The translations under genes and the position numbers were made by a program. From contig JASHOU010000079.1 in NCBI GenBank assembly GCA_030038475.1, forward strand, positions 1 to 33,372: 33,372 bases of DNA, written 5' to 3'. The DNA comes from Terriglobales bacterium (GTDB taxonomy: Bacteria; Acidobacteriota; Terriglobia; Terriglobales; Acidobacteriaceae). Shown piece by piece: positions 3,313-5,657 of this stretch (positions are counted from its first letter, which is position 1; each line of letters opens with the position of its first letter). Below the pieces are notes generated by a model. The model was not told where the DNA came from, searched no databases, and saw only the letters and a list, made by a program, of their open reading frames with translations.

Positions 3313-3933
3313 ATGCCTCGCGGAGCGCCAATTTTGCTTTTCACGCCGCAAAACCTGACCGTCGCGACCACCGGCGCCAGTGGATCGATATTTCTCAAAC
3401 ACTTTTTACTTGCCGCCGAACGCGATTCTCGGGTAAAGACCGTAAACTTCATCGCCTCTGACAGCGGTTTGCGCGTCATGGCCGAGGAACTCGGCGTCGA
3501 AGGCCGCTCCGACCTTGTACGTCAAATCATCGGCGCGCCTTCGGGAAAAATTCAGCAGCAATCGAACACCGACATTGGCGCCAACGTCGCCAGCGGGTCA
3601 TATCCTTCCGATGCCATGGTCGTCCTCCCTTGCAGCGTCGGAACGCTTGGCCGCATCGCCAACGGCACCGCTTCGCGCCTCATCGAGCGCGCCGCCGATG
3701 TCAGCCTCAAGGAGCGTCGGCCGCTCGTGCTCTGCGTGCGCGAGACGCCGTTGAACAAAATCCACATTCGCAACCTGTCGCTGGCAGCCGACGCCGGCGC
3801 AACCATCTTTCCGATCATCCCGGCGTTTTATAACCATCCCCCCAGCCTTGATGCCATGGCGCAGGAATTTGCTAATCGTGTGCTGGCCCACATCGGACTG
3901 CCACAACCGGGCGCCTACCAGTGGAAAGGCTGA
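3313..3933 (+). CDS. ubiX: UbiX-type flavin prenyltransferase
   Basis: This is a 206-residue flavoprotein. The N-terminal VATTGASGSIF segment is the FMN-binding loop of the UbiX/Pad1 family. VVLPCSVGTLGRIANGTA and LVLCVRETPLNKIHIRNL are the family's conserved central and C-terminal motifs. The family joins dimethylallyl phosphate to reduced FMN to make the prenylated cofactor used by UbiD decarboxylases. Length matches the usual 190-210 residues. No ubiD is visible in the window. The start at 3313 leaves about ten residues before the first strand, as usual. It is transcribed away from the ChaN-like gene; the spacer between them holds a 7-bp array. Confidence 0.9.
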   Translation: MPRGAPILLFTPQNLTVATTGASGSIFLKHFLLAAERDSRVKTVNFIASDSGLRVMAEELGVEGRSDLVRQIIGAPSGKIQQQSNTDIGANVASGSYPSDAMVVLPCSVGTLGRIANGTASRLIERAADVSLKERRPLVLCVRETPLNKIHIRNLSLAADAGATIFPIIPAFYNHPPSLDAMAQEFANRVLAHIGLPQPGAYQWKG

Positions 3934-3940
3934 ATACGAA

Positions 3941-4043
3941 TTCTCAGTTGTCGGTTCTCAGTTCTCAGCAAAAACCATCGAACCCAAAAAGGGAGGGTTC
4001 ACTAGGAACTGGGAACTCACACGAAGAAATGAGAACTTCTTAA
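3941..4043. repeat. Foldback of 7-bp units after ubiX
   Basis: The left arm is four in-phase 7-mers at 3941-3968 (TTCTCAG, TTGTCGG, TTCTCAG, TTCTCAG). The right arm has complementary words GGAACTGGGAACTC (4005-4018) and ATGAGAACTTC (4030-4040). It lies 7 bp after the ubiX stop codon. Confidence 0.75.
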
Positions 4044-4072
4044 AAGATCGATGACTCTGGGTGGACTCGGGG

Positions 4073-4102
4073 AAAGCCGTTTCCTGCTTTGCAGGCTTTT
4101 TT
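4073..4102 (+). terminator. Possible intrinsic terminator downstream of ubiX
   Basis: CCTGC (4083-4087) pairs with GCAGG (4091-4095) around a TTT loop, followed by six T at 4097-4102. An alternative outer pairing AAAGCC/GGCTTT (4073-4078 with 4094-4099) uses the same bases. The stem is short, so this is moderate evidence only. Confidence 0.5.
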
Positions 4103-4239
4103 CAGTCTAGGGAAGGGGCAATAACGACGGTAGGTCTCTGGCGTTCATGTACTGCGAGTCGGACCTAAGTGCCATCGACTTTGTTTCCCTTGGTTTGCTG
4201 TTCGAGGTCCGCGCGCGTCAGCCGACTCCAAGGAAGGAG

Positions 4240-4267
4240 AACTGACAACTGATAACTGACAACGGAG
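4240..4267. repeat. 7-bp tandem array (AACTGAN)
   Basis: Four in-phase 7-mers: AACTGAC, AACTGAT, AACTGAC and AACGGAG. The last position varies. It is a single arm with no clear inverted partner nearby. It lies in the gene-free stretch 3934-4798, about 40 bp upstream of the promoter of the candidate RNA. Confidence 0.7.
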
Positions 4268-4309
4268 AGCCGCCCCTGTTGCTTCCCGTGGCACGCCTCC
4301 TCCGTGCCG

Positions 4310-4339
4310 TTGACTCGCGCCCTCGCTTTTTTGTACCCT
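4310..4339 (+). promoter_or_regulatory. Sigma-70-type promoter for the candidate small transcript
   Basis: A -35 TTGACT (4310-4315) and a -10 TACCCT (4334-4339) are separated by 18 bp. The predicted start is near 4346, a few bases before the extended Shine-Dalgarno sequence. The match is fair; it is supported mainly by the ribosome site and terminator that follow it. Confidence 0.45.
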
Positions 4340-4367
4340 GCAACTACACCGGAAAGGAGGTGGTCGG

Positions 4368-4424
4368 ATGACAAGTTCTGATTGTAGTCATAGTAGTAGA
4401 CCAGGTGAGGTGGCTGAGACTTAG
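4368..4424 (+). CDS. Putative 18-residue peptide in the candidate RNA
   Basis: The ATG at 4368 follows GGAAAGGAGGTGGTC (4351-4365 with the ATG 2 bp further), a match of almost the whole 16S rRNA 3' end, far longer than the usual 4-6 bases. The frame reads MTSSDCSHSSRPGEVAET and then stops at TAG (4422-4424). The codons (AGT, AGT, AGA) are richer in A/T than those of the neighbours. The ATG and its surroundings form a hairpin. This may be a leader peptide or a tiny real protein, or the frame may be accidental and the motif a ribosome- or rRNA-binding element. The spacing of 2-5 bp from the core AGGAGG is short but workable. Confidence 0.3.
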   Translation: MTSSDCSHSSRPGEVAET

Positions 4425-4657
4425 AGCGGTTGCTCTAAGGGGAGTTCCTGCGAACCCTTGGTCAGGGCGAACAGGGACATTCTCTCGCAAACCATCCGTG
4501 AGTAGGGCTGATTGAGTATCGTCTGATCCACCGGGCACAGGCTGTGTCTGGCACCGGAGTGAGCGAGGGGCCACGACGTACACCCCATCACGCCAAATGC
4601 GGCGCGCTGGGGACCCCGTTGAGTGACCACCTCAGTCAATCCCAAACAGTCCACCGG

Positions 4658-4698
4658 ACAGCCCGCAGGCTGAAAAAGCTTGCGGGCTGTTCTTTTTT
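4658..4698 (+). terminator. Strong intrinsic terminator
   Basis: ACAGCCCGCA (4658-4667) pairs with TGCGGGCTGT (4681-4690). The stem is extended inward by GGCT/AGCT (4668-4671 with 4677-4680) around an A-rich loop, and TCTTTTTT (4691-4698) follows. It ends the small transcript described above. The nearest plus-strand coding gene is ubiX, more than 700 bp upstream. Confidence 0.88.
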
Positions 4699-4798
4699 CG
4701 GGGGTCCGGCTCGCGTGGCCGAAACTTCTGCAGAGCATCAGGGAAATCGCCGCAAATCGTCGTAATTTTCCCCGATCCTTGATCGACTTCTGAAACTG

Positions 4799-5593
4799 CT
4801 AATAACGGCCCTGATTTGTCCACAGTCGAACCTTCTCCTCGACGGAAAACGACTGCCCCGGATTTTCCGCAAACTTCGATTCCAACTGGATGGTGTGAAC
4901 CTCCAGCGGCACGGTGACGTGGGAGCGGGTTCGCAGGAAAGCCCGGACAAAAAGCTCGCAGTAGCGTTCCAGACCCAAAACCTCAAACTGCACGGCGTGC
5001 ACCAGAGCATGGAACAAGGGGCGCGTGGTGATCTCCCCCTGGAAGACCACTACGTCTTCGAATGTTAGCGACGGCATTTGCGTCATATCGGGCAGGTTCT
5101 TGATTCCCATGGCTCGCGCCTCCATATAGAAAGCGGGGTTCGTCATCCGCTGTCCGACAAGGCTGACGATTCGAACCTGTTGCAGCAGCGTCGGAGAAAA
5201 AAAGGGCTCCATCAGTTGCCAACGATCCCGATCCAGCGGAACGCCGTTAGGCCGGAAGAGTTCGCGCTGCGCTCGCAGAAAATCGGCCACGAGAGCGATC
5301 GCCTTCTCGACCTTCGCCTCGTTCAACACCGGAGTATCCTGCTTGTCACCCGCACGCGAATCCGGCAACTGCCCGATAATGCTGTCGTAGTACTCATACA
5401 AAGCGCTGGCCGATGACCAGGCTTTGCGCAAAACATCGCGCTGCGCGTAGCGGGCGACGTCCTCCAGCGAATAACGAAGGCGCACACGATCGGTGGCACA
5501 TTGTGCGCTGAGCAATTCCAGTTGAGCGTGACGGAGTTCGGCGTTCATTTGCACGACAGCGCCGCGGCCGCCCGCGTCATCCGACAAAACCAT
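4799..5593 (-). CDS. Hypothetical protein with an HxxxH...E helix (metallopeptidase-like C-terminal half)
   Basis: I chose the start at 5593 (MVLSDDAGGRG) because AGGAG lies 8 bp before it; an upstream ATG at 5611 has no ribosome site. The protein is about 264 residues and has no signal peptide. The N-terminal half is helical and mentions no known motif. The C-terminal half contains RPLFHALVHAVQFEVLGLE (HALVH, His-x3-His) followed by VPLEVHTIQLESKF, a pattern seen in small uncharacterised zincin-like proteins where His-Glu-x-x-His and a later Glu bind metal. Here the usual Glu after the first His is Ala, so activity is uncertain. It is divergent from the TetR gene across an AT-rich, repeat-containing spacer, which suggests the regulator controls it. 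Confidence 0.72.
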   Translation of the reverse strand: MVLSDDAGGRGAVVQMNAELRHAQLELLSAQCATDRVRLRYSLEDVARYAQRDVLRKAWSSASALYEYYDSIIGQLPDSRAGDKQDTPVLNEAKVEKAIALVADFLRAQRELFRPNGVPLDRDRWQLMEPFFSPTLLQQVRIVSLVGQRMTNPAFYMEARAMGIKNLPDMTQMPSLTFEDVVVFQGEITTRPLFHALVHAVQFEVLGLERYCELFVRAFLRTRSHVTVPLEVHTIQLESKFAENPGQSFSVEEKVRLWTNQGRY

Positions 5594-5657
5594 CGATGGA
5601 CTCCTAAACATTGAAATCCCACCTGAAGAAAGGGGAGAGCTGTTAAAAGCGTCACAA

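Follow-up and report, generated by a model that had tools for sequence, protein, structure and literature searches.

The window, by which we mean the whole 33,372-nucleotide stretch of DNA that was analysed, carries at about positions 4346–4692 of its forward strand a member of a mostly single-copy RNA family, one larger than the first-pass annotation had supposed. We assign a probability of roughly one half to the reading that the locus is a stand-alone RNA gene, representing an undescribed family, with a fold coupled to translation of its own micro-ORF. Comparison of relatives shows the gene to be present in single copy, with its own promoter and terminator, a Shine-Dalgarno sequence (SD) that spans the whole 16S tail and an in-frame ORF with a conserved stop. 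Predicted helices, supported by the same comparison, link the last codons of the ORF (helix P1) and the stretch that follows the stop (helix H1 or P2') with one another and with the 3' part. The letters were re-read in the window.

Distribution of the RNA family

An exact 23-mer around the SD and start codon was found at 65 loci of genome_contigs, all of them labelled Acidobacteria, Terriglobia or Candidatus Sulfotelmatobacter. Within the order, a 21-nt signature of the ORF end matched 297 of 397 sampled genomes, representing 62 of 80 genera; it occurred once in 294 of these genomes and twice in three, and the reversed control matched 1 of 397. The covariance model R1, built on the 3' core, recovered 93 of the 397 genomes, very diverged members included, and therefore misses most of the family. 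A second R1 match in one genome (locus L123 in G090) was rejected as a false positive. The 21-nt signature also missed true relatives: in a second family of the order (14 sampled genomes) it found one, and two further genomes were seen to carry the RNA on inspection (L115 in G009 and L250 in G001).

In a sample of the phylum, a composite pattern of SD, ATG and ORF end matched 41 of 44 genomes of the window's family, and its reversed form matched 5 of 396 genomes. Eight of the 13 matches outside that family were judged by eye to be chance-like and were set aside. Homologues were identified in five genomes from two families outside the window's class (G420, G466, G575, G739 and G608), all with the promoter, SD, tail and terminator of the family and a frame of 11 codons (MSSNHSEVAET and similar). 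In most of the phylum's sampled families these patterns found nothing, a result that is no proof of absence. R2, a model built from other lineages, detected 30 of 34 loci outside its training set at E <1e-5; on the window it returned only two weak pieces (E 7e-4 and 9e-4), and the window's own genome was missed in the phylum search. A viral origin was considered and rejected, as the three matches of a shorter pattern in viral_contigs stand before unrelated ORFs.

Promoter and terminator

The first-pass annotation had proposed a promoter here. A 601-nt scan of the window found no consensus sigma-70 promoter, but the alignment of 146 upstream sequences from the family does support one: a TTGAC-like -35 element (T at 90%) and an extended -10 element of the form TG..TANNNT (T 83%, A 91%, T 89%), with the -35, the -10 and the extended TG all at a fixed distance from the ACAC at whose A the transcript appears to start. 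In the window these elements read TTGACT (4310–4315) and TACCCT (4334–4339), and the distance from the -10 element in the logo places the inferred start at the ACAC of 4346–4349. The intrinsic terminator is present where it had been reported, at 4656–4692, with 16 pairs when G-T is allowed, 10 of them G-C, followed by a T run; the same 601-nt scan found one terminator against 0.5 in shuffled sequences.

Between these ends, the 3' part of the window RNA contains a palindrome-like insertion of 38 nt (4581–4618), which is probably a dispersed repeat since a stretch on contig C144 of the same genome is 87% identical to it. In some members of genus g2 (L195 and L196), the stretch between H1 and the tail is far longer than in other members.

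The micro-ORF

The ATG (4368–4370) and 18 codons noticed at first reading are there in the letters: the frame, MTSSDCSHSSRPGEVAET followed by TAG, occupies 4368–4424. An in-frame start is kept in all 221 parsed records of the 226 collected. The frame is 14–22 codons long in 158 of 159 unique frames and 11 codons long in the five genomes of two other families. Stops divide into TAG (157) and TAA (9) among 166 parsed unique members. Because the record search demanded TA[AG] as the stop, TGA could be seen only through the phylum-sample searches, in which it ends the frame in G575, G466 and G002, with TAA in G608. The use of all three stops at one place points to termination rather than to fixed letters. 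Third codon positions vary most (463 of 1064), and among close pairs, which are not independent of one another, the nonsynonymous-to-synonymous ratio is 0.51 in frame versus 0.85 and 0.89 in the shifted frames. Among the peptides, a serine- and acid-rich start and an end of the form [S/G/R]EV[A/T]E[A/T] are recurrent. These comparisons argue for a micro-ORF that is translated, as in a dual-function RNA.

Conserved helices around the stop codon

The description of the locus as a stand-alone structured transcript draws support from its own promoter, the conserved frame, the SD and the spread across genomes. The fold of the window RNA has a z-score of -3.58, with none of 100 shuffles as stable; for 36 family members folded without the terminator the mean is -1.86, and 26 of the 36 lie below -1.

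Three helices are proposed, each with 8/8 pairs in the window. P1 joins the last ORF codons (4411–4418) to CTCAGTCA at 4631–4638. H1 is a hairpin at 4420–4439, its 5' arm CTTAGAGC holding the stop codon and its 3' arm being GCTCTAAG. P2', which was found by pairing the post-stop segment with the bases immediately 5' to the 3' strand of P1, joins the loop and 3' arm of H1 (4428–4435) to GAGTGACC at 4621–4628. H1 and P2' share the H1 3' arm, so only one of them can be complete at a time. A conserved 3' tail, AGTCAATCCCAAACAGTCCACCGG (4634–4657), is evident in both alignments (A1, 49 of 54 selected sequences; A2, 41 of 64).

In the 41 diverse sequences of A2, the proposed helices are paired in 87.9% of cells, versus 31–47% when the strands are slid, and 11 of 24 pairs have changed on both sides versus 6.3 in shuffles. 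Conserved sequence and covarying helices, whose lack in relatives was to have told against the first-pass annotation, are thus both present, which on these comparative grounds marks the RNA as belonging to a structured family. A mutual-information ranking on the first alignment reflected mostly lineage differences and was set aside.

The three helices differ in their individual support. Covariation in relatives is seen for P1, of which unconstrained RNAalifold proposed a longer version: at the column pair 7–154, A-U is replaced by G-C on both sides in 14 of 41 sequences, a switch that turns a Thr codon of the frame into one for Ala. With their own partners the P1 strands score 8.35 versus 7.79 when shuffled (0/500), a small gain. 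Support for H1 is modest (6.81 versus 6.47 shuffled, 0/500), and in three of the 41 rows a change of TAG to TAA is accompanied by the matching change on the opposite arm. For P2', the 226 records less 20 with no recognised tail gave 155 unique members, of which 8 more could not be parsed; in the remaining 147 the mean is 7.50 bp versus 4.82 shuffled, with P2' weak (3 bp or less) in 24. A second test on 75 distinct strand combinations gave a mean run of 5.97 bp versus 3.43, with none of 1000 shuffles reaching it. The four aligned columns of P2' are paired in only 67.4% of A2 cells.

Other pairings were considered. A helix pairing the 5' end with the stretch that precedes the terminator was rejected (mean run 3.53 versus 3.71 shuffled, 300 of 300 shuffles equalling or exceeding the true value). 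The hairpin said to hide the start codon is predicted in the window; the sequence involved was not seen in relatives, and the hairpin is not supported as a feature of the family. In the window's lineage the 3' strand of P2' has a possible third partner: GGCCAC (4569–4574) can pair with GTGACC (4623–4628) in 5 of 6 positions in the window, and L020 is changed on both sides.

The helices bear directly on the view that the RNA is simply a small mRNA, with the micro-peptide as its product and a 3' fold that only protects the message or tunes its translation. The invariably kept frame and start codon, the excess of third-position changes and the recurring peptide ends all speak for it. However, the end at which the peptide is most conserved falls on P1, the 5' strand of which tolerates amino-acid changes that keep the pairing (Ala/Thr, GGCCA/GGTCA); the product varies from 11 to 22 residues; and the 3' part is conserved beyond the needs of a plain 3' UTR. 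We consider this view unlikely, while still a credible competitor.

Complementarity to the 16S rRNA tail

The SD, GAAAGGAGGTGGTC (4352–4365), is complementary, with one G-U, to the whole 3' tail of 16S rRNA, the end of which reads GGATCACCTCCTTTCT in four relatives. That it is exceptional, as the first reading had it, is borne out across the family: in 150 of 151 parsed unique members (of 159) the SD core is followed by one or two bases and then G[AG]TC, which allows pairing with the second half of the 16S tail as well. This second-half pairing is kept also in the 59 members with an extra base between the SD halves. A search of 11 genomes for the 14-mer GAAAGGAGGTGRTC returned 11 matches, five in this RNA and six in the antisense of the 16S end; in the window's own assembly this RNA is the sole match because that assembly has no recognised 16S end. 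Equilibrium folding, which excludes pseudoknots, gave the SD mean unpaired probabilities of 0.50 and 0.42, with no clear state. A second SD-like element, GAGGTG[AG], lies inside the frame about ten bases before the stop, at 4409–4415 in the window and likewise in relatives; it too is complementary to the 16S tail, and it might keep a ribosome in place at termination.

The conserved complementarity is consistent with an RNA that binds the 30S subunit, as the first-pass annotation had also suggested. A ligand or sponge for the 16S tail would take this further, with the RNA holding 30S subunits and its short frame, structured at the end, keeping or delaying them. Preservation of full-tail complementarity despite the inserted base, and the absence of the 14-mer from all other genes of the 11 genomes save the 16S antisense, are as such a sponge would have them. 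But it would require high abundance, and the genuine stop that closes the in-frame ORF suggests that ribosomes pass right through. Moreover, the conserved 3' tail shows no complementarity to 16S rRNA beyond chance (longest runs of 7–9 versus shuffled means of 8.0–8.9). We regard the sponge as rather improbable, although it and the small mRNA are the chief competitors of the preferred reading.

A possible lock on the Shine-Dalgarno sequence

A further proposal was that pairing with GACCACCTC (4625–4633) switches the SD between an open and a closed state. The complementarity is real, with 9/9 Watson-Crick pairs to GAGGTGGTC, although the partner lies at 4357–4365, one base 5' of its first assignment. 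Runs of at least 8 bp between the SD and the 3' part occur in 28 of 32 window-like members, a group set by the letters of the ORF end that takes in a few outliers such as L118 and L119, versus only 9 of the 66 others. In the latter the mean run is 5.6 versus 4.6 in letter shuffles, mostly from GAGG:CCTC. The 16S tail itself resembles GACCACCTC, and the match therefore follows in part from the SD. As GACCACCTC overlaps the 3' strands of P1 and P2', the lock would exclude both helices. It may operate in the window's own lineage but is not supported as the mechanism of the family; as an explanation of the RNA, an SD switch of this kind is improbable.

A competing element had been named as well, TGAGGTGG (4406–4413), which was to pair with CCACCTCA (4627–4634). 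The letters of both are as given and the proposal is close, but the pairing conserved for the 3' strand is with the ORF end (P1), shifted by a few bases.

Genomic neighbourhood

Upstream of the RNA, the window encodes a Flavoprotein-family protein (3313–3933), which we take to be UbiX. This flavoprotein gene is the upstream neighbour in a cluster of 20 of 93 loci, with other neighbours in other lineages. The downstream neighbour (4799–5611, minus strand) has no Pfam match. When ORFs of 100 aa or more are considered at 82 loci, the first one downstream runs towards the RNA in 49 (convergent) and in its own direction in 33 (co-directional), and the RNA therefore does not lead into a gene, in agreement with the first reading of the terminator. 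Neighbouring ORFs differ between lineages (300 ORFs, 118 of them singletons). A leader with a transcription attenuator for a downstream gene is highly improbable: an attenuator is built of just such parts (a short ORF, alternative helices, a terminator), and a gene that is presumably thiG lies downstream in several relatives, but no consistently co-directional downstream gene was found among these loci and the neighbours vary.

Comparison with known RNA families

The first-pass annotation recognised no family and advised a search of Rfam. With Rfam 15, nothing in the window exceeded the curated threshold, and at E up to 10 the region 3950–4800 gave three sub-threshold hits; for 28 relatives the search returned tRNA neighbours and sub-threshold hits only, including Ms_IGR-5 on both strands. 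Among the open-licence papers listed in literature searches, nothing was recognised as this RNA.

tmRNA is a structured RNA with an internal short frame, the stop of which lies within the structure. The window RNA resembles it as a structured RNA with a short frame; unlike tmRNA, it has an SD and a start codon, and ARAGORN detects no tRNA-like end. An identity with tmRNA was rejected: neither RF00023 nor ARAGORN matches, and a separate tmRNA is found at C87 in the same genome. 6S RNA (RF00013) is likewise a single-copy stand-alone structured RNA; it carries no ORF, whereas the window RNA does, and a separate 6S locus is present at C57. RNAIII and VcdRP are dual-function RNAs. With them the window RNA shares the combination of a stand-alone structured RNA and a small ORF; it differs in that the end and stop of the ORF lie within conserved helices and the SD spans the whole 16S tail, and there is no shared sequence.

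Attenuator leader peptides and upstream ORFs with extended SDs have been described, for example in S. aureus (PMC13009471), and are alike in having a short frame, alternative structure and SD pairing beyond the core; unlike them, the window RNA has no controlled gene downstream. Acido-1 (RF01686) is listed for Acidobacteria as an RNA that is probably not cis-regulatory (PMC2864571). Its 64-position model matched neither the window RNA nor the 28 relatives; in the window's own genome no place for Acido-1 was found, and the search control was likewise without a match anywhere.

A proposed model of translation-gated folding

Most likely, as far as comparison of sequences can guide us, the RNA acts in trans and its fold is opened by the ribosome that translates the micro-ORF; both the switch and the action in trans are what we infer from the conserved parts. 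A 30S subunit would be captured with high affinity by the SD, and the captured ribosome would translate 11–22 codons and have to open P1 and H1 at the end. The freed strands could then re-pair, so that the fold would report whether and how the frame is translated. Since no gene is consistently placed downstream, the output would be in trans or through the stability of the RNA itself. In the window's lineage, GACCACCTC would be released once P1 and P2' open and could then mask the SD, so that ribosomes would be admitted singly.

A bolder version can be put forward as a speculation that we hold to be doubtful: a dedicated single-copy ligand of the 16S tail would sample free 30S subunits by translating its own frame, and the pseudoknot at the stop codon would signal in trans on translation at large, making this a new kind of regulatory RNA in Acidobacteriota.

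The RNA joins three things that do not usually occur together: complementarity to the whole 16S tail, a micro-ORF with an end that doubles as one strand of a helix, and alternative helices that enclose the stop codon. Kept in single copy by most of the order's sampled genomes, and having relatives beyond the class, it likely does something important. If the preferred reading of a fold coupled to translation of the micro-ORF is true, the family would represent a translation-gated RNA with no attached gene, and would open the sensing of free ribosomes in bacteria to study.
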